A DNA stretch of 64,000 nucleotides from Gemmatimonadota bacterium (GTDB lineage: Bacteria > Gemmatimonadota > Gemmatimonadetes > Longimicrobiales > Gaopeijiaceae): contig JBBEBG010000025.1 in assembly GCA_040882465.1 (NCBI GenBank), positions 1 through 64,000 on the forward strand, written 5' to 3'. The position numbers and the translations under genes were made by a program. Shown piece by piece: positions 27,143 to 52,054 of this stretch. The notes under the pieces are model-generated. The model made no database searches. It was not told where the DNA came from and worked only from the letters and a program-made list of their open reading frames with translations. Numbering within the stretch: position 1 is the stretch's first letter; each line of letters begins with the position of its first letter.

Positions 27143-27607
27143 TCAGGTGGCCTGCACCGGAATCTTCCGTCCTTTCGCCTCGGGACGCTTCTGGATCCGG
27201 ACCTTCAGGACTCCCTGGTGAAAGTCCGCCTTGATCTTCTCGGGGTCGGCGGGCGACGGCAGCGTGAAGCTGCGCTCGAACGCGCCGTACTGGCGCTCCG
27301 CGATTCGGACACGCTGATCGCCGCGCTCGGTCTCTACCTTCCTCTCGCCCCTGACCGAGAGGATGTTTCCGTCCATCTCGATGTCCACGTCCTTGGGCTC
27401 GATCCCGGGAAGCTCGGCGGTGAGGACGTACTCGCCGTTCTGCTCCGCAAAGTCGACGCGAGGAGCCCAGATTGAGCCCTCGCCAGCCGAGGCTGCCCAG
27501 GGGAGGTTCCGAGCCAGACGGTGCATCTGGTCCTCCAGGAGATCGAAGTCGGGCCAGGTGGGAAGAAAGCCGCTGTCGCGACGCCGAAGGGTGGGTAGGA
27601 GTTGCAT
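27143..27607 (-). CDS. Hsp20 family small heat-shock chaperone
   Basis: 154 residues with a central alpha-crystallin domain (about 45-140): FAEQNGEYVLTAELPGIEPKD, DGNILSVRGERK, then the C-terminal A-x-x-x-GVLxV strand (HQGVLKVRIQKRPE). The tail KGRKIPVQ supplies the I-x-V-type anchor for oligomerisation. GGAGGT is 6 nt upstream of the ATG. It holds unfolding proteins for refolding. First gene of the operon with the BON protein. Confidence 0.93.
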   Translation of the reverse strand: MQLLPTLRRRDSGFLPTWPDFDLLEDQMHRLARNLPWAASAGEGSIWAPRVDFAEQNGEYVLTAELPGIEPKDVDIEMDGNILSVRGERKVETERGDQRVRIAERQYGAFERSFTLPSPADPEKIKADFHQGVLKVRIQKRPEAKGRKIPVQAT

Positions 27608-27681
27608 TGGATACCTCCGCAGTAACTAGGTGAGTGTCCCGCGCCGCTGGGGCGACAGCCCGCGGTCGCGGTATGGATCAG

Positions 27682-27697
27682 TGCGAGAGACGTGCCA
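27682..27697 (-). promoter_or_regulatory. Sigma-54 (-24/-12) promoter-like element before hsp20
   Basis: Minus strand TGGCACGTCTCTCGCA: a full TGGCAC -24 box, GG-N10-GC spacing and a one-base-off -12 box (TCGC for TTGC). Predicted transcription start about 27671, giving a 64-nt leader to the hsp20 ATG. Confidence 0.6.
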
Positions 27698-28041
27698 GGC
27701 CACGGCGAGTGAGGGACGCCCATAGAGCTGCTGCAAGAGACCGCTTCGGTGGGGGCGGCGACGTGGGATCGCCATTCGTGGCAGGGACAATGCGTCCCGG
27801 GAGTGAGACGAGCCGACCCGTGCGCGAGCGTCGTCCGGTTCAGAGCCCGCTTGGAAGGGCGATCGCGAGCGCCGGAAGTTGTGTGAGCGCGAGGTCGTCC
27901 GGATACTCCACGTAACCGCTTATCGCTACGGCGGACACTTTGACCCCCAACCGGGGCCGCCTCACGGGCCATCTCGTCCCAGGCTCAAGGTCGGAAGCTC
28001 GCCGGATGTGGTGTCCGGGGCGACCGGGCGGGACGCCGCTC

Positions 28042-28057
28042 TGGCACTGTCGTTGCG
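28042..28057 (+). promoter_or_regulatory. Sigma-54 promoter-like element before the PRPP synthetase gene
   Basis: TGGCACTGTCGTTGCG matches both the -24 (TGGCAC) and -12 (TTGC) boxes with exact GG-N10-GC spacing. Predicted start about 28068, 50 nt before the ATG at 28118. Confidence 0.75.
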
Positions 28058-28117
28058 TTGAGGGCGACGCGCCCGTTGCCGCTTCAGCACGAACGAACCT
28101 CATTCCGGAATGGCCTC

Positions 28118-29101
28118 ATGCAAAGCGAGATCCGACTCTTCGCCCTCGGAGAGAGCGGGGCGTTCGGAGAACGGATGGGCCGTGCCCTGGGCATTCCCCT
28201 TAGCGAGCACGAAATGCGGGACTTCGAGGACGGCGAGCACAAGGGGCGTCCCCTCGAGAACGTCCGCGGTCGCGACGTGTTCGTCGTGTACTCGCTCTAC
28301 GGAGAGCCGGGCCGGAGCGTGAACGACAAGCTCTGCCGGCTCCTTTTCTTCCTAGGTGCGCTCCGCGACGCCGCGGCCGGCCGTGTGACGGCAGTCGTTC
28401 CCTACCTGTGCTACGCACGAAAGGACGCGAAGACGAAGCCCCGGGACCCGGTCACGACGCGGTACGTGGCCTCCCTGTTCGACGCCGTCGGAGCGGACCG
28501 CGTGATCACGATGGACGTGCATAACGTGGCGGCCTTTCAGAACGCCTTTCGCGTCAGGACCGAGCACCTGGAGGCCAGCGCGCTCATTCTCGGTCACCTC
28601 GAGGGGCACTTCCGTGGAAAGGACATCGCCGTCGTGTCGCCGGACGTGGGCGGGGTCAAGCGAGCGGAGCGCTTCGGCGAAGCTCTCGCTCGCCGTCTCG
28701 GGCAACCCGTGTCGCGTGCCTTCATGGACAAGCGGAGGAGTGAGGGCGTGGTCACCGGAGACGTGCTCGTGGGCCCCGTGGAGGGACGGACCACCCTTCT
28801 CGTGGACGATCTGATCGGGACCGGAACCACTATCGGGCGAGCGGCCCGCGCATGCCTGGCAGCCGGTGCCCGAGAGGTGTGGGTGGCGGCTACTCACGGC
28901 CTGTTCCTCGAAGGTGCGGCGGAGGTCGTGGCCGATCCGAGCATCGCCCGGTTGGTGATAGCAGACACCGTTCCGCCGTTTCGGCTCGATCCGGATCTCG
29001 TGCGCCGGAAGGTGGACATCCTCGACTCGGCAGCGATGTTCGCGGAAGCGATCCGGAGAATACACGAGGGGGGATCGATCGTGGAGCTTCTCGAGAGCTG
29101 A
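28118..29101 (+). CDS. Ribose-phosphate pyrophosphokinase (PRPP synthetase family)
   Basis: 327 residues. Family elements are FEDGEHKGRPLENVRGRDVF (flag loop region), VVPYLCYARKDAKTKPRDPV (ATP loop), ITMDVHNVAAFQNAF (metal His), VVSPDVGGVKRAERF and the PRPP loop VDDLIGTGTTIGRAA. It makes PRPP from ribose 5-phosphate and ATP. The sequence differs from housekeeping enzymes (DVHN for DLHA; LYGEPGRSVNDKLCRLL), like the stress-cluster paralogues. It leads an operon with a phosphoribosyltransferase, and a nucleoside phosphorylase lies 5 kb on, together suggesting ribose and base salvage under stress. Confidence 0.88.
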   Translation: MQSEIRLFALGESGAFGERMGRALGIPLSEHEMRDFEDGEHKGRPLENVRGRDVFVVYSLYGEPGRSVNDKLCRLLFFLGALRDAAAGRVTAVVPYLCYARKDAKTKPRDPVTTRYVASLFDAVGADRVITMDVHNVAAFQNAFRVRTEHLEASALILGHLEGHFRGKDIAVVSPDVGGVKRAERFGEALARRLGQPVSRAFMDKRRSEGVVTGDVLVGPVEGRTTLLVDDLIGTGTTIGRAARACLAAGAREVWVAATHGLFLEGAAEVVADPSIARLVIADTVPPFRLDPDLVRRKVDILDSAAMFAEAIRRIHEGGSIVELLES

Positions 29102-29114
29102 TGGAGAGTCAACC

Positions 29115-29819
29115 ATGAACCACCTGTTCTGGGATCGGCGGGAAGCGGGACGGAGGCTCGGACACCTCTTCGCCCGAAGAACGGACTTGCGGGAGCCCGT
29201 GGTCCTGGCGCTGCCGAGGGGAGGCGTCCCCGTCGGGCTCGAGATCGCACGGGCCCTTCGGGCTCCCCTGGACGTCCTCATCGTCCGCAAGCTCGGTCAC
29301 CCCAGACAGCCGGAGCTCGCCGTGGGAGCCATCGCTTCGGGCGGCGTGAGGGTAATGAACGCGGAGGTGGCGCTGGAGGCCCCGGTTTCCGAGGCCGATC
29401 TGGACGCCGTCGTCCGCCGGGAGACCCGTGAGCTCGAGCGGCGGGACCGGGCGTACCGCGGCGAGCGACCTCCGATCGACGTCAGAGGCCGAACGGTCAT
29501 TCTCGCGGATGACGGCGTTGCGACCGGTTCGTCCATGCTGGCGGCCATCCGTGCGTTACGGCTATCGGAGCCGGTATCCATCGTCGTGGCGGTACCCGTT
29601 GCTCCCCAGGACACGGTCACCCGTCTGGAGCGCGAGGCGGACGAAGTCGTGTGCCTCGCCTCTCCGGAGCCATTATACGCGATCAGCGTCTGGTACCAGT
29701 CGTTTCCACAGGTCGATGATGTCCAGGTACGCGACATCCTGGATCTCTGGGCGGCGGAGATCGCGGAAGCCGAAGCGACCGAGGCGCGGGAGGAAAGCTC
29801 TGGAGTCGAGCGTCCTTAG
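29115..29819 (+). CDS. Phosphoribosyltransferase
   Basis: 234 residues. Starts LFWDRREAGRRLGHLFARR, then LALPRGGVPVGLEIARAL and LIVRKLGHPRQPELAVGAIA, and the PRPP loop VILADDGVATGSSMLAAI (DDGxxTG). This is the stress-cluster type of PRTase often annotated as a predicted phosphoribosyltransferase; the base it uses is not known. It follows the PRPP synthetase by 13 nt with GGAGAG upstream, so substrate supply and use are encoded together. The stop codon overlaps the stop of the convergent hydrolase gene. Confidence 0.88.
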   Translation: MNHLFWDRREAGRRLGHLFARRTDLREPVVLALPRGGVPVGLEIARALRAPLDVLIVRKLGHPRQPELAVGAIASGGVRVMNAEVALEAPVSEADLDAVVRRETRELERRDRAYRGERPPIDVRGRTVILADDGVATGSSMLAAIRALRLSEPVSIVVAVPVAPQDTVTRLEREADEVVCLASPEPLYAISVWYQSFPQVDDVQVRDILDLWAAEIAEAEATEAREESSGVERP

Positions 29820-32737: not shown

Positions 32738-32751
32738 GAGTGGCGCACGAG

Positions 32752-32767
32752 CGCAACCACTGTGCCA
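32752..32767 (-). promoter_or_regulatory. Sigma-54 promoter-like element before the CapA gene
   Basis: Minus strand TGGCACAGTGGTTGCG, full match to -24 and -12 boxes with GG-N10-GC. The predicted start (about 32742) is only about 5 nt before the ATG, so the mRNA would be almost leaderless or the true start codon lies further downstream. Confidence 0.65.
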
Positions 32768-32968
32768 GACGTGAACACCGCGGAACACGTTCGGCGCGTC
32801 GTGCGGGTCGCGTCTCGCGGGACTCCGTCGGGCACGGATCCGCTCCACTTCGAACGGACATATTGGCCCGCATTGGGACACCGAATTGGGTCGTCTCGTC
32901 CGGTCGCCCGCTTCGGGAGCCACTCCGAAGACCGCTCGGATCCCGGGCGCCGTCTCGAACAACGGGCG

Positions 32969-32984
32969 TGGCACGGTCGTTGCA
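32969..32984 (+). promoter_or_regulatory. Orphan sigma-54 promoter-like element
   Basis: TGGCACGGTCGTTGCA, the best match to the -24/-12 consensus in the window. The next plus-strand gene begins 530 nt downstream and has its own element, so the product of this promoter is unknown. Confidence 0.7.
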
Positions 32985-33443
32985 AATTCTTCAGGGCGAG
33001 CGGGGAGGACATTCGTTCTTCCTCGTCGAAGGCCCGAAGGGAGCAATTCCGGAGGGTCCGTGCGTCGGGAGTTCGGTGCTCGGCGCACCGGTCGTGAGGT
33101 CGCTGGACACGACCGAGTCCCACGGCCGAGGGGACACCTGGATCGCGGAAACGCGACGAGGGCAAGGAAGCAGACCCGGTCCGTCGCACGAGGCGGATGC
33201 CGAAACGAAATGGGTCCGCTTTTCGCCAGCGGGAGGGGGTCTCAGGAAGGCGCGTGTAACCTTCCCGAGGCCCCCTATCTTATTGAATGGAGCCGACCCG
33301 CATCGTTTTCAGGTCCTTTGGGCGAAGGTCGCCTGCCGCACCGGCCGGCGGGATTCGGGCCAGTCCTCGAGTACGGACGATCCACCCTGCCGTCTTCTCC
33401 CACTACCACGGCACGGCGAAGCCATCAGGATGAGACTAGGCTG

Positions 33444-33459
33444 TGGCATGTCGGTTGCA
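33444..33459 (+). promoter_or_regulatory. Sigma-54 promoter-like element before the small zinc-ribbon gene
   Basis: TGGCATGTCGGTTGCA, exact GG-N10-GC spacing with TTGCA at -12. Predicted start about 33470, 47 nt before the ATG at 33517. Confidence 0.7.
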
Positions 33460-33516
33460 AGGTCCAAGGGGTGCGAGCAGCAAGGCCCGAATTCGACAAT
33501 CACATGGGAGCAAGAG

Positions 33517-33768
33517 ATGGCCGTCTGTGAAACGTGCGGAAACGATTACCACCGCTCCTTCGAGGTGACCACTGTGCACGGGGTTCACGTATTCGACTCC
33601 TTTGAGTGCGCGATCCAGAAGCTGGCGCCGCTGTGCGCGCGCTGTGGGGTGCGAGTCGTGGGGCACGGCGTCGAGGCAGGGCCGGCCATCTACTGCTGCG
33701 CCCACTGCGCGCGCAAGTCCGGAACGACGGGAATCGTGGACCACCTGGGAATCCTGGACCATGCGTGA
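33517..33768 (+). CDS. Small zinc-ribbon protein
   Basis: 83 residues with eight cysteines in ribbon-like pairs: CETCGNDYHRSF, FDSFECAIQKLAPLCARCG and YCCAHCARKSG, probably binding one or two zinc ions. The ATG is preceded by GGGAGCAAGAG. Similar small proteins are found in stress clusters of other bacteria, function unknown; a role in binding RNA or protein is a guess. It has its own sigma-54-type promoter. Confidence 0.75.
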   Translation: MAVCETCGNDYHRSFEVTTVHGVHVFDSFECAIQKLAPLCARCGVRVVGHGVEAGPAIYCCAHCARKSGTTGIVDHLGILDHA

Positions 33769-34891: not shown

Positions 34892-35455
34892 ATGGACCCG
34901 TATCTCCCGCGAGTTCTCGAGGTCGTGCGTACACTCGCCCTGGAGTGTGGTGGACCCCGGGCCTTTCAGGCCGTGACGCCCGAGGCCTCCCTCGTTCGCG
35001 ACGTGGGCCTAGACAGCCTGGAGCAGGTGGAGCTCCGGGTCCGCCTCGAGGCGGCCTTCGGGGTCGAGCTCCCGGACGACACGCTCTCCCTGGACACCCC
35101 AGCGGGGCTGGCCCGGGCCGTAGGGGATGCCCACGCCGCCGCTCCGGTCGCCCCTCCGGATGTGGTGGCCCCTGTTCCGGGCCCCGGCATCCAGCGGGCC
35201 GAGGGGGCCGACACCCTTCACGGGGCCCTCGTGAAATGGGCTGACGCAGAAACGATGCGCCCCCATGCCTATCTCCGGCAGGACGACGGCTCGTTCACGA
35301 TCCTCACCTATGGAGAGCTCGGGCAGGGTGCTGCCGCCCTGGCCTCGGGAATCCGGAGCCGAGGGATCCAGCGGGGGGAGGCCGTGGCCCTGATGCTTCC
35401 CACCGGCGGCGACTTCCTGCGTGCGTTCATGGGCATCCTCCTGGCGGGCGCGGAT
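34892..35455 (+). pseudogene. Truncated acyl carrier protein - AMP ligase fusion
   Basis: Residues 1-80 are an acyl carrier domain with the phosphopantetheine site DVGLDSLEQVELRVRLE. After a Pro/Ala linker, about residues 110-188 start an AMP-binding (acyl-CoA/ACP synthetase) domain: RPHAYLRQDDGSFTILTYGE, RGIQRGEAVALMLPTGGDFL and FMGILLAGA. The homology stops at about 35455, right after GILLAGA, where several hundred more residues are expected. From there the DNA belongs to an oppositely oriented PAS gene. Intact relatives also carry acyltransferase domains and act on acyl-ACP. Confidence 0.75.
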
Positions 35456-35986
35456 CTGGATAAGAACATCGCATGTGTGCCGGACGCCGCTGGAGAAGAC
35501 GTCCTCGAGGTGACGGCGGACGACGTCCGCGTCACCCATCCGAAGGAAGGAAGCGATGGGCTTCCCCACGAGCCGCCGCCGCTTGATTGCGAAGAGAGCG
35601 GCGGCGGCGCCGTTGGCCTCTCGGATCCTGCCCGAACGATCCAGCTTGAGATAGCCAACGGCCGCGACGGCGTAGAGCTCGGAGTACCGGCTGTCGCTCT
35701 GCTCGACGTGGAGCTGCGCAGCCCGAAGCTCCCCACGCAGCTTCTCGATCTCGTGCCGGAGCCGCTCCACATCGCCCGCACGAGGGTTCCCGCGTTCCGT
35801 GGACGTGGGCCGAACGAACCGCACTCTCGGATTCGATCCGTACAGCGTGCTCGGGCGGCCACCTTCGGTCCGTTCTTTCGTCCGGTCGGTTGGTTCCGGG
35901 CGCTCGTCGGCGCGGCCCGGCAGCTCCTCGGTCCGGGCGTCGCCCTGCGTTCGAGCCGATCTGGTGAGGTCGTTTGTCGCTGTCAC
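35456..35986 (-). pseudogene. Truncated PAS-domain protein
   Basis: Starts with GTG at 35986. A charged N-terminal region is followed by a coiled coil (VERLRHEIEKLRGELRAAQL) and a PAS domain (ELYAVAAVGYLKLDRSGRIR, GAAAALFAIKRRRLVGKPI). The coding pattern ends at about 35456 (HTCDVLIQ), where it collides with the truncated AMP-ligase gene; the frame that continues is its shadow. Relatives continue into a histidine kinase or further PAS domains. Confidence 0.7.
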
Positions 35987-36499
35987 GGCGGCCCGCCTTT
36001 CCCCTCGAGATCGGGCTGATTCGTGTCAGAAGAGGACTGCAATTTACCTCTGCCGGGAACCCGGTAACAAACCCGTTCTTCCGCGTCCGGACACCGCCCC
36101 CGCAAGTGGCGCGGACACAGGATTAGCAGAATGAGATGGAAATTAGCTTGTTGGGCGCGACGCCGCGCCAGGGAGACAGGGAGTCCGCTCGCGGCACAGA
36201 ATGGCCCTCGTCAGAGGCACGTCACAGCCCGTCCCTTCGCCGTCGCAGGCGGTGTAGGCGCGGCCCTGCTCGTCCCCTCGACAGTTTCCCACCGGCCCCG
36301 AGAGGCGAGCGGCAGGGCCGAAAGTGATGGCATCAGGCGGACAGTGTGGCCCATCTTGGGACGACCGATCGGGACATGTCGTCTCGGCCGGGCCTGGTCC
36401 TTTACGGACGCGGCCCCGACCCCCGAGGGGCGGCGTTAGCCTCCCACCTTGCGCCCCAAGTCACGCTCGACGGCTTCGACTGCCGCATCCAGCGCGCTG
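35987..36499. other. About 510 bp without a recognisable gene
   Basis: Between the start of the truncated PAS gene and the Usp remnant. The frames present are Arg-rich and not protein-like. It must hold the promoter of the PAS gene; I found no convincing -35/-10 or -24/-12 pair. Confidence 0.4.
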
Positions 36500-37471: not shown

Positions 37472-38968
37472 CTATCCCTTGAGAACCCCCATGGGATGAA
37501 GGCGGACCACTTTGCGACCGATGCCGGCTCCGGCCACCACGTCCACGACCTCGGCCACGTCCTTGTACGCCTCCGGCACCTCTTCGGCGATCGTGGCGAA
37601 AGAGGAGGCCCGAACCTCGATTCCCATCTCACGGAACTCCTTCCGAAGGCTTCGCCCGGCCACCATCTTCTTCGCCGCCGTACGGCTCATCCGCCTTCCC
37701 GCTCCGTGGCACGTCGAGCCGAACGTCTCCTGGTAGGCGGCCTGGGTTCCCAGGAGCACGTAAGAATAGCGTCCCATGTCTCCCGGGATGAGGACGGGCT
37801 GACCGAGCTCGCGGTAGAGGGGAATGAGCTCCGGGTGACCCGGAGGGAAGGCTCGCGTGGCGCCCTTCCGATGCACGCAGAGCCTGCGCAGGGCCCCACC
37901 CACCTCGTGCGTCTCCCACTTGGCGTTGTTGTGTCCCACGTCATAGATCTGGGTCATCCCCATCTGCTCCCAGGGGCGTCCCAGAACCCGCTCGAATGCC
38001 TCCCGAACCCGGAACGCCATCATTTGGCGGTTCGCGAACGCGTAGTTCGCTGCGGCGTTCATCGCCCCCATGTAACGCTTGGCTTCGGGCGAGTCGAGCG
38101 GAGCGCACGCGAGCTGACGATCCGGAAGGTCGATTCCGTAGCGGGCAGCCGCCTCGAGCATCACATCCAGGTAATCGTCGCAGACCTGGTATCCGAGCCC
38201 CCGCGAACCGGAGTGGATGAAGACGCACACGGTGCGGTGCTCGAGTCCCAACCGCCGGGCGGCGTCGGCGTCGTGGACCTCGTCCACGTAGCCCACCTCG
38301 ATGAAGTGGTTTCCCGACCCGACGGTTCCGAGTTGAGCCATGCCCCGCTCGATGGCACGGGGGCTCACCTGGCTCGGGTCCGCCCCGGGCAGGATTCCCC
38401 CGGCTTCCGTGCGCTCCAGATCCTCCTCCAATCCGTATCCGTGGCGCACGGCCCAGGCCGCGCCTTCCACGAGGACCTCTTGGACCTCGGCCACCGTCAG
38501 GCTGAAGCGTTTATAGTGAGAGCCGACTCCCGCAGGCACATCCCTCATGATCTGGTTCATGAGGTCCGCGAGATGGGGCCGGACCTCCTCCTCCTTCAGG
38601 TCGGTCCGAAGGAGCCGGACCCCGCAGTTGATGTCGTAACCGACTCCACCGGGCGAGATGATCCCACCCGCGTCTGGATCGAAGGCCGCCACCCCGCCAA
38701 TCGCGAACCCGTATCCCCAGTGGATGTCGGGCATGCCGATCGAGCGACCTACGATACCGGGGAGACAGGCCACGTCCGCGACCTGTCGGACGGCCTCCGC
38801 CCCCCCTTCGCCCGGGGCCGCCAGGGCCGCCATGAGGGCGTCGTCGGCGAAGATGAGTCCCTCGACCCGCATCTTCCCCTGGCGAGGGATCACCCAGCGC
38901 CAGGGATCGACTTGGCGCAGCTCGATCTCGCCGAGAACGATCGAGCGAGGCTCGGCCTTCGGCGTCAC
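37472..38968 (-). CDS. rtcB: RtcB family RNA ligase
   Basis: 498 residues. Features are [20 protein letters not shown], the Mn-binding Cys in [42 protein letters not shown] (metal residues), [12 protein letters not shown], and the guanylylated-His region [17 protein letters not shown], followed by SYVLLGT and [12 protein letters not shown]. It joins 2',3'-cyclic phosphate or 3'-phosphate RNA ends to 5'-OH ends. The GTG at 38968 has GAGGAAAG 6 nt upstream; another GTG lies two codons before. Operon with archease, behind a -24/-12 element, which parallels the sigma-54/RtcR-controlled rtcBA operon of E. coli. Confidence 0.93.
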
Positions 38969-39132
38969 GACCACCTTTCCTCGATGGCGCTCCGGAGGGA
39001 CAAGTCGGGGTGGAGAGTGACGACTTTCGGGGTCATTGGTTCGCGTAGCGTGAGCATGGAGTTTCCTCGAGTTCCGGCCGGTCCTGGCCAAGAGTCCATG
39101 ACTCTTCACCATTCGGGCACTCGATCGGAAAG

Positions 39133-39148
39133 CGCAACATCCGTGCCC
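39133..39148 (-). promoter_or_regulatory. Sigma-54 promoter-like element before rtcB-archease
   Basis: Minus strand GGGCACGGATGTTGCG, with GGCAC at -24 and TTGCG at -12 and exact spacing. Predicted start about 39122, giving a leader of about 150 nt to the rtcB GTG. Sigma-54 control of rtcB is established in E. coli. Confidence 0.65.
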
Positions 39149-39401: not shown

Positions 39402-39605
39402 ATGTCTGTCGCCAAAGTCACCGAGATCACCGCGAACTCCCCGAAGAGCTTCGAGGATGCGATTCACCAGGGGCTCTCCCGGGCGAGCAAGTCGCTCAAG
39501 GGGATCCAGGGGGCGTGGGTGAAGGAGCAGAAGGTGGCGTGGAATGGCTCCGGAATCAGCGAATACCGCGTGACGATGAAGGTGACCTTCATCCTCGAGG
39601 ACTGA
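39402..39605 (+). CDS. Dodecin family protein
   Basis: 67 residues: [40 protein letters not shown] and [20 protein letters not shown], a full-length dodecin. Dodecins form dodecamers that store flavins (or coenzyme A in some bacteria); the Trp in GAWVKEQ occupies the flavin-stacking position. Strong G-rich ribosome binding site. First gene of a run that continues into GroEL 6 nt downstream. Confidence 0.92.
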
Positions 39606-39610
39606 CCCGC

Positions 39611-41230
39611 ATGCCGCACAAGGAGATGCTCTTCCGCTCGGAAGCGCGTGAGAAGGTGCTCAAGGGAACCGCGACGCTGGCGGACGCCGTGCGCGGGACG
39701 CTCGGACCCAGGGCTCGCTCCGTCCTGATCGAGCGGAAGTGGGGAAGGCCTCTTGTCTGCGACGACGGGGTCACGATCGTGAAGGAGTTGGACCTCGAAG
39801 ATCCGGTCGAGAACCTGGGGGCTCAGCTCCTGAAGGAGGCTGCCGAGCGCACGGGCGATGTCGTGGGAGACGGTACGACCACGTCCACCCTCATCGCGCA
39901 CGCGATCTTCGCAGAGGGAGTGCGGAACGTCACCGCTGGAGCGGCAGCCGTCGACGTTAGGCGGGGCCTGGAGAGGGGGCTCCGGCGTGCCGTCGAGGCC
40001 CTCGCACACCTTTCGCGCCCCGTTGCCGGTCGGGACGAGAAGGCCCAGGTGGCGTCGATCTCGGCCCACGGGGACACCTTCGTGGGCGGGATGGTCGCGG
40101 ACGCCGTGGAGAAGGTTGGCGCGGAGGGCGTCATCACGGTCGAAGAGGCGAAGGGGACGGAGACCGTCCTGGACCTGGTGGACGGGATGCAGTTCGACCG
40201 GGGTTATCTCTCCCCGTACTTCGTCACGGATCCCGAGAAGATGGAGGCGGTCCTCGAGGAGCCTCTGATCCTCCTCTGCGAGAAAAAGATCGCCGTGATG
40301 AAGGATCTCATGCCGCTCCTCGAGCAGGTGGCCCGGGAGGCACGTCCGCTCCTCATCGTCGCGGAGGACGTGGAAGGAGAAGCGCTCGCCACACTCGTCC
40401 TGAACAAGATCCGCGGAGTCCTTCCCTCACTCGCGGTGAAGGCCCCGGGGTTCGGGGATCGCAGGAAGGAGATGCTCCAGGACATCGCGGTCCTCACAGG
40501 CGGACGCCTCGTGAGCGAGGACATCGGGCTCAAGATCGAAAACCTGAGTATTGGGGATCTCGGCTCCGCGGCGCGGATTGTCGTGGACCGGGACACCACG
40601 ACGATCATCGGCGGCGGCGGTGTAGCGGGCGAGATCGAGGGTCGCGTGAAGGAGCTCCGGCGCCGGATCGAGGACACGACGTCGGACTACGACAGGGAGA
40701 AGCTCCAGGAACGGCTCGCGAAGCTTTCTGGAGGCGTCGCGGTCATCCGGGTCGGGGCCCCTTCCGAATCCGAGATGAAGAGCCGAAAGGAAGCGTTCGA
40801 GGACGCGATCAACTCCACAAAGGCGGCCGTCGAGGAGGGGATCGTTCCCGGCGGCGGCCTGGCGCTCCTCAGGGCGATCCCCTCAGTGGAGGCGGAGGCG
40901 GCGGCGGCGGAAGGAGACGAGCGAACTGGCATCCTCATCCTCAGGCGGGCACTCGAGGTGCCGGTCCGCCAGATCGCCGAGAACTCGGCGGTGGACGGGG
41001 GAGTCGTCGCGGACCGGATGCGGAATGGAGCGGGCAACTGGGGCTTCGATGCCGCCCGGGGCGAATACGTCGACCTGATGGAGGCCGGGATCATCGATCC
41101 CACGAAGGTCGTCCGAGTCGCCCTCGAGAACGCCGTGTCGGTGGCCGGCGTGCTGCTATTGGCCGAGGCCACGATGACCGAGGTGCGTGAGCCGGAGCCG
41201 GCGCGGTCGCCGGCGGCCGAGACCTACTGA
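39611..41230 (+). CDS. groEL: GroEL-type chaperonin, solitary paralogue
   Basis: 539 residues starting [18 protein letters not shown]. All ATPase elements are present: [19 protein letters not shown], the [17 protein letters not shown] loop and [13 protein letters not shown]. The C-terminus ends with [10 protein letters not shown] and lacks the usual GGM tail. No groES is adjacent, and instead the gene is in a stress operon with dodecin and CBS proteins, so this is probably a second, stress-specific chaperonin rather than the housekeeping copy. A frame open far upstream of 39611 is not coding. Confidence 0.93.
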
Positions 41231-50194: not shown

Positions 50195-52054
50195 ATGACC
50201 GACTCCGTCCGGGACATTCTCCGCACCGCGGTCCGCGTCGCCCTGATGCTCGGGGTCGCCTGGGCCGTCGTCTTCCTCAGCCGCGGGGGCCTCGAGGGCG
50301 TCCGGCCCGAGGCGGTAGCCTACTCGCGCTTCCTGGAAGCACTCGACCGGGAGGAAGTGGCGGAGGTGTCGATCTCGCCCGAGGCCGTCGTCTGGCGCGA
50401 GCGGGCTGCTCCCGAAGGCGTCGTCTTCCGCGCTGTGCGGGTTCCCGGGGTCGATGACGCGGAGATCGTGGCCCGCCTCCACGAGACCGGCGCCCTGATC
50501 GTGGGGGAGTTCCCTGGAGAGGGGTGGGGCCCGGTGCTCGTGTGGCTCCTCCCCATGGGCGTCCTGCTCCTCTTCTGGGCCTGGTTCCTCCGTGGAATGG
50601 CGGGGAGAGGACGCCCGGAGGCGCTAAGCTTCGGCTCCAGCCGGCCGAAGATCTGGGACCAGACCACCGCCCGCGCGACGTTCGATGACGTGGCCGGGGT
50701 GGACGAAGCGGTGACGGAGCTCCGCGAAGTCGTGGACTTCCTCCGTAACAAGGAGCGCTATACCCGGATCGGGGCGCGCATCCCCAAGGGAGTCCTCCTC
50801 GTGGGTCCCACGGGCACGGGCAAGACTCTTCTCGCCCGTGCCACTGCCGGTGAGGCGGGGGTGCCGTTCTTCACCACCTCCGGCGCCGAGTTCGTCGAGA
50901 TGTTCGTCGGCGTAGGCGCGGCGCGAGTCCGGGATCTCTTTCGTCAAGCCAGGGAGAGGGCTCCGTGCATCGTGTTCATCGACGAGATCGACGGGCTCGG
51001 GAAGACCCGGGCGGGACCGGGCTCACCCGTGAGCAACGACGAACGGGAGCAGACGCTGAACCAGCTCCTGATCGAGTTGGACGGGTTCGACGCCTCGGGC
51101 GGAGTCATCATGATGGCCGCCACCAACCGTCCGGACCTCCTCGACCCGGCGCTTCAGCGGCCGGGGCGCTTCGATCGTCAGATCTTCGTGGACCGCCCGG
51201 ACCTGCGGGGCCGGGAGGCGATCCTGGCCATCCACGCGCGCCGAATTCAGCTCGAACCCAACGTGGACCTGAGGGTCGTGGCGGCCCGTACACCCGGGTT
51301 CGCCGGGGCTCAGCTCGCGAACGTCGTGAACGAGGCGGCTCTGCTTGCGGTGCGTGGCTATCGAGAGCGCGTCACGATGAAGGACCTGGACGAAGCCATC
51401 GACCGGGTCATGGCCGGGCTGGAGCGGACCAGCCGTGCACTCATCGCACGAGAGCACGAGATCGTGGCCCACCACGAAATGGGGCATGCGCTCGTCGGGA
51501 TGCTCCTTCCCAACGCCGATCCCGTCCACAAGGTCAGCATCGTTCCGCGTGGAGCCACAGCGCTCGGCGTTACCATCCAAACCCCTCTGCACGACCGCTA
51601 TCTCCTGAGCGAATCGGAACTGCGGGACCGCCTGACCGTGGAGCTCGCCGGGCGCGCCGCCGAGGAGATCGTCTTCGGGGAGGGGAGCACGGGATCCGCC
51701 GACGACCTTCAGGGGGCAACGGAGCTCGCCCGCCGGATGGCCACCCAGTTCGGGATGACGGAAGGAGTGGGGCCCGTCTCCCTGGAGGACGGACCGGGCG
51801 CTTCCTTCAGCGAGCTTTCCCTGCTTCCTCAACGGTATTCGGAGGCGACCGCGCGTGCGGTCGATCGCGAGGTGCGCCGGCTCGTAGAGGAGGCCTATTC
51901 CCGCGCCCTGCTTCTTCTCCGCGAGAAAGAGGACGTCCTTCGTACCCTGGCCAAGGAACTCAAGGAAAGGGAAGTCCTCGAGGGGGAGGAGCTGGCGAGC
52001 CGGATGCAGGAGTTGGGATGCTTCGCGCCGGAGGTCTCGGGGTCGCCTCGATAA
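50195..52054 (+). CDS. ftsH: FtsH-like ATP-dependent zinc metalloprotease
   Basis: 619 residues. Two membrane helices (about 14-30 and 107-128) flank a short periplasmic domain. AAA core: Walker A GPTGTGKT (204-211), Walker [12 protein letters not shown], second region of homology [20 protein letters not shown]. Protease: HEMGH (427-431) in place of the common HEAGH, and the third ligand Asp region [16 protein letters not shown]. It degrades membrane and regulatory proteins. It is shorter at the C-terminus than housekeeping FtsH and sits in the stress island, so a second copy is likely. Confidence 0.93.

Follow-up and report, generated by a model that had tools for sequence, protein, structure and literature searches.

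A predicted structured RNA conserved across Gemmatimonadetes follows a sigma-54 promoter element

We consider it highly likely, in the absence of transcript data, that a sigma-54 element and the sequence behind it in a Gemmatimonadota genome constitute a sigma-54-transcribed structured RNA of a new Gemmatimonadetes family. The element lies in a contig stretch of 64,000 nucleotides that was analysed as a whole (hereafter, the window), and it very probably serves as the stress-type promoter for a gene encoding a folded RNA of approximately 290 nt. The computational support consists of homology, a covarying structure, promoter placement, a terminator, and the lack of a conserved downstream gene. 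Transcription, the inducing signal, action in trans, and the partner are all inferred. The original prediction had described an orphan promoter that might transcribe a small RNA or a long leader or mark a deleted gene. The first of these options is supported by the homologues in more than 100 genomes, the covariation, and the promoter placement, with transcription remaining an inference. The features are as follows.

32969 to 32984, + strand: sigma-54 -24/-12 promoter element TGGCACGGTCGTTGCA, the sole perfect consensus genome-wide, in the position of the promoters of the homologues
32995 to 33284, + strand: predicted structured noncoding RNA, approximately 290 nt (covariance model match; fold z = -3.25)
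33002 to 33024, + strand: P1, the 5′ hairpin (fold of the window)
33031 to 33058, + strand: P2 hairpin (fold)
33060 to 33088, + strand: P3 hairpin, GTTCGG loop (covarying helix 1)
33090 to 33114, + strand: P4 hairpin (helix 2), with the near-invariant loop segment GGTCGCTGG at 33098-33106
33117 to 33135, + strand: P5 hairpin (helix 3)
33137 to 33162, + strand: P6 hairpin, CCTGG...GAGGG (helices 4 and 5)
33180 to 33197, + strand: P7 hairpin (helix 7), whose loop at 33186-33190 (GCACG) complements that of the terminator
33224 to 33232, + strand: conserved segment CGCCAGCGG ahead of the terminator (alignments)
33235 to 33284, + strand: terminator-like hairpin, loop CGTGT (33253-33257), T-rich tail (score 46.8)
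33444 to 33459, + strand: second sigma-54 element TGGCATGTCGGTTGCA, serving the zinc-ribbon gene
33517 to 33768, + strand: zinc-ribbon-like ORF of 83 aa, its own transcription unit, in no Pfam or NCBIfam family

The claim that TGGCACGGTCGTTGCA is the best -24/-12 match in the window was borne out, and the element is also the only zero-mismatch match to the 12-base consensus TGGCACG-N4-TTGCW in the 3.53-Mb genome, where 31 further sites match with one mismatch. The consensus alone is weak evidence, because the pattern with at most one mismatch occurs at 32 sites compared with 31 for the backward control and is thus not enriched genome-wide; the case is built on the evidence presented below. Four of the 32 matches fall in the 64-kb window. 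The genome carries rpoN and about 11 strong sigma-54 activator genes, and no sigma-54 activator gene was found within the window.

The approximately 530 nt behind the element had been said to lack a recognisable reading frame, and we reach the same conclusion. Coding periodicity is absent from the stretch up to 33444, and GC content at codon positions gives no signal in 32900-33500. An open frame of 342 aa (32740-33768) crosses the stretch in phase with the zinc-ribbon ORF, as would be expected if a decayed or unrecognised protein gene were accompanied by a stray sigma-54 site. However, in homologues of the region each of the three forward frames is interrupted by stop codons, and the long frame is therefore a high-GC artefact; on these grounds and for want of a codon-position GC signal, we rejected it as a protein gene. 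Moreover, some homologues have a sigma-54 site at the corresponding position, and we give the protein-gene explanation practically no credence. A deleted gene is likewise disfavoured because conservation follows the RNA base pairs and not a reading frame. The comparison with related genomes that had been proposed as a check thus revealed a conserved, covarying RNA structure and no conserved reading frame. The statement that no gene lies behind the promoter stands as far as proteins are concerned, since no protein-coding signal was found, but it misses a conserved structured RNA that, together with a terminator-like hairpin, occupies approximately 32995-33284.

A plain DNA search (blastn) of 39 relatives identified two genomes that match inside the stretch. 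Both share the layout of a promoter, approximately 100 nt to the GGTCGCTGG core, and a strong hairpin with a T-run, and both have a sigma-70-like promoter where the window has its sigma-54 element. Extending the search with one homologue yielded 44 of the 154 genomes of the order. A covariance model built from 18 cores, including the window copy (R1), matched 89 of these 154 genomes and 111 of the 395 genomes of the phylum, and a second model built from 77 homologues (R2) matched 115 of the 395, all belonging to one class (Longimicrobiales, Gemmatimonadaceae, and others). Most genomes in the phylum search gave no match, although the first-look filter of that search passes no more than a few candidates from each genome on to scoring. 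All named matches above 35 bits are from Gemmatimonadota. Outside this phylum, the contig pattern search returned only matches of 31 bits or less, which we took as chance, and no match to the RNA was found in viral contigs. The window copy matches at 33057-33232, with 136.4 bits under R1 and 133 bits under R2. The R1 score alone is not independent because the window copy was among the 18 training sequences; the blastn matches in two genomes located the region independently. By its match to the covariance model of P3 to P7, the window copy qualifies as a member of the new RNA class.

The start of the RNA, 32995, is inferred from its distance of 12 nt past the GC of the -12 element, and the predicted fold comprises seven hairpins and the terminator-like hairpin. 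The covariation test covers P3 to P7, and P1 and P2 rest on folding. Across 75 distinct sequences, 88.9% of cells are paired, and changes on both sides occur in all 30 modelled pairs; for P4, 98% of cells are paired, with both-side changes in all six pairs. Double-change cells number 455 compared with 132.7 in shuffles, and this signal is lost when the partners are slid. Because the 75-sequence alignment was fitted to the structure, an alignment made with MAFFT, which is not structure-fitted, is the fairer test; it retains covariation in 23 of 30 pairs (69 cells vs. 24), with the caveat that the helices were picked by eye on the same alignment. RNAalifold recovered only two helices from the first alignment because variable loops were misaligned, and the helices set by hand later held up.

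Two loop-loop contacts, first recognised on visual inspection, were put to a test with permuted partners. The contact between the P7 loop and the terminator loop has a mean score of 12.5 compared with 9.8 ± 0.29 when permuted (0 of 5000), 11 unresolved copies having been excluded before scoring. Its covarying pairs include GCACGT/ACGTGC, GCATCT/AGATGC, CACGGG/CCCGTG, TTACGG/CCGTAA, and GCATCGC/GCGATGC, and the window copy carries GCACG/CGTGT. The contact between the P1 and P6 loops scores 14.8 compared with 13.5 ± 0.28 (0 of 3000), and no clear instance of it was seen in the window copy. These permutations were not corrected for relatedness, yet the pair sequences vary among lineages. Through this pairing between the terminator and P7 loops, the RNA includes its own 3′ end in the fold.

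The terminator-like hairpin of the window copy, with a score of 46.8, exceeds the value of 45 that only 0.07% of random segments reach, although its tail is only moderately T-rich. The hairpin was missed by a simple terminator scan that allows loops of at most 8, its own loop being 9. A hairpin and T-rich tail scoring at least 35 follow 73 of 123 copies, compared with 0.6% of random segments. This 3′ end bears on whether the RNA could instead be a riboswitch-like leader that controls the zinc-ribbon gene, its terminator hairpin acting as the switch. The RNA and that gene lie on the same strand, the structured RNA ends in a terminator-like hairpin, and the P7-terminator contact could modulate termination. 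The stretch is, however, bounded as originally described by a second sigma-54 element (TGGCATGTCGGTTGCA, 33444-33459) ahead of the zinc-ribbon ORF (33517-33768), so that this gene has its own promoter past the hairpin, which itself ends approximately 160 nt before that promoter. In addition, the copies adjoin unrelated genes, including lipB/rnhA, a gene for a TPP enzyme, a tRNA gene, and a Usp gene, among others. A conserved class of same-strand downstream genes, which would be expected of a cis-regulatory leader or riboswitch, was not found; the downstream genes differ, and rnhA is convergent. The arrangement of lipB, the RNA, and convergent rnhA is kept in several genomes of one family (f1; L082, L086-L088, L090). 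Because the flanking genes differ among genomes, we interpret the RNA as free-standing, and we regard a leader, including the long leader first suggested, as very unlikely.

Of 72 copies, six score 11 or more out of 13 for a sigma-54 element in the 40-position promoter zone, compared with 0.076 expected. Three further copies not used in this first count (G077, G090, and G086) score 12, and in the enlarged set nine of 124 copies have a strong sigma-54 element compared with 0.13 expected. The copies in these counts are not fully independent. A strong sigma-70-like promoter precedes 47 of the 124 copies, against a background of 1.5% in random segments, and is absent from all nine sigma-54 copies; the copies of one genus (g37) have a longer 5′ end and a probable sigma-70-type promoter farther upstream. 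In the window copy, the -24/-12 element is correctly placed before the RNA, as is required of a sigma-54-dependent small RNA. The genome analysed here contains one copy of each type, the second (contig C17, locus L072, 4466-4820) having a TTGACA-17-GATACT promoter and a strong terminator and being flanked by citrate-transporter-like and acetolactate-synthase-like genes. The sigma-54 copies lie outside the lipB/rnhA neighbourhood. Another genome (G087) also has one copy of each type, its sigma-70 copy at lipB/rnhA and its sigma-54 copy near a universal stress protein gene. In a further genome (G301; L178, 2786-4557), the sigma-54 copy is directly upstream of a gene for an NtrC-type sigma-54 response regulator. 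The tree of RNA copies is poorly supported, and neither a single nor a repeated origin of the sigma-54 copies has been shown.

The wide conservation within the class and the sigma-70-type promoters of many copies would also suit a strongly diverged housekeeping RNA, such as 6S RNA, RNase P RNA, tmRNA, or SRP RNA. The 6S position even appears vacant: the 6S model (RF00013) has no match in this genome at E values up to 10, is silent in 99 of the 101 class genomes, and matches only two (L211 and L212, families f8 and f10), and these two families have no copy of the new RNA among the R2 matches listed. This distribution is only suggestive, given the low sensitivity of the 6S model and the different architecture. 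Against a diverged known RNA, Rfam 15 gave no match at the gathering threshold in the window or in ten homologous loci, and relaxed scans produced no match to the strand of the RNA at its position. The identification as 6S RNA was rejected for lack of an RF00013 match and because a chain of seven separate hairpins, five of them covarying, is unlike the single long bulged hairpin of 6S. RNase P RNA (RF00010) was rejected because the genome encodes it elsewhere (C16:108216-108581), and ARAGORN found no tmRNA in the window. An SRP-like RNA was rejected because the GGAAG motif is not conserved among the homologues. We therefore see only a slim chance, slightly smaller than that of a leader, that a known housekeeping RNA is hidden here. 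A CsrB-like RNA with GGA loops was also rejected, the A of the GGA in the P4 loop being unconserved. Literature searches, in which supplements could not be searched, found no description of such an RNA.

Under the preferred reading, a free-standing structured RNA, the sigma-54 element would drive a transcript of approximately 290 nt that is ended by its own terminator-like hairpin. Many copies in the family would be driven by sigma-70, and a minority, including the window copy, by sigma-54. In the likeliest functional reading, the sigma-54 copy would be a paralogue, inducible by stress or nutrients, that adds to the dose of the same activity, and the RNA would act in trans, with a protein partner or target making contact at the near-invariant P4 loop GGUCGCUGG. 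That the window RNA is a stress-inducible, sigma-54-controlled, trans-acting paralogue of a housekeeping structured RNA is a tentative proposal that we hold at somewhat less than even chances, its function being inferred. A broader proposal appears unlikely at present, namely that a Gemmatimonadetes-wide RNA class, with a terminator hairpin that works in the tertiary fold, gave rise by duplication to housekeeping copies under sigma-70 and stress copies under sigma-54 and may have a global, possibly 6S-like, regulatory role. The 6S-like role is possible because the only recognisable 6S RNA in the class was seen in two other families.

Further sigma-54-like sites occur in the window at 27682-27697 (- strand) and at 28042, 39316, and 50098 (+ strand), and they precede genes for HSP20, PRPP synthetase/phosphoribosyltransferase, dodecin-GroEL, and FtsH (27143-29819, 39402-41230, and 50195-52054). 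The sites around the window copy suggest a stress regulon or island, although individual sites could be chance. The minus strand carries a gene for the RNA ligase RtcB at 37472-38974, preceded by a sigma-54-like site (39133-39148), an arrangement that recalls RtcR-regulated rtcB. An ORF at 34892-36019, which overlaps a PAS-like ORF on the opposite strand, contains a phosphopantetheine site and only a fragment of an AMP-binding domain and looks like a truncated gene.

With these results, a phylum for which the literature searches gave no such RNA gains a large RNA class with strong covariation. They join two promoter systems to one RNA class and tie the loop of a terminator hairpin into the fold. 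What was an "orphan promoter" becomes a gene that can be tested, its start, end, and structure being defined.

Sigma-54-dependent small RNAs include Qrr1-4 of Vibrio and CrcZ and NrsZ of Pseudomonas, which are base-pairing or protein-titrating RNAs of Proteobacteria with a simpler fold. The new RNA resembles them as a free-standing RNA behind a -24/-12 promoter, with a terminator and an expected enhancer-binding activator. Its many covarying helices, its two loop-loop contacts, and its near-invariant loops set it apart from them, as do the many family copies that look sigma-70-driven. Unlike YrlA, the Y RNA-like RNA of the Salmonella RNA-repair operon under RtcR and sigma-54, it lies outside any rtc operon, the homologues examined are not beside rtcB, and it shows no tRNA-like module (no ARAGORN match); the two share the sigma-54 link, and rtcB with its possible sigma-54 site is approximately 4 kb from the window RNA. 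Compared with the large structured noncoding RNAs OLE, the raiA motif, ROOL, and GOLLD, whose function was initially unknown, the phylum and architecture are different, and there is no sequence or covariance match to Rfam. The new RNA nevertheless shares with them an elaborate conserved fold, lineage restriction, an intergenic location, and a noncoding nature. The RNA class itself is new, matching no described family, and sigma-54-driven RNA as a general kind is already known.
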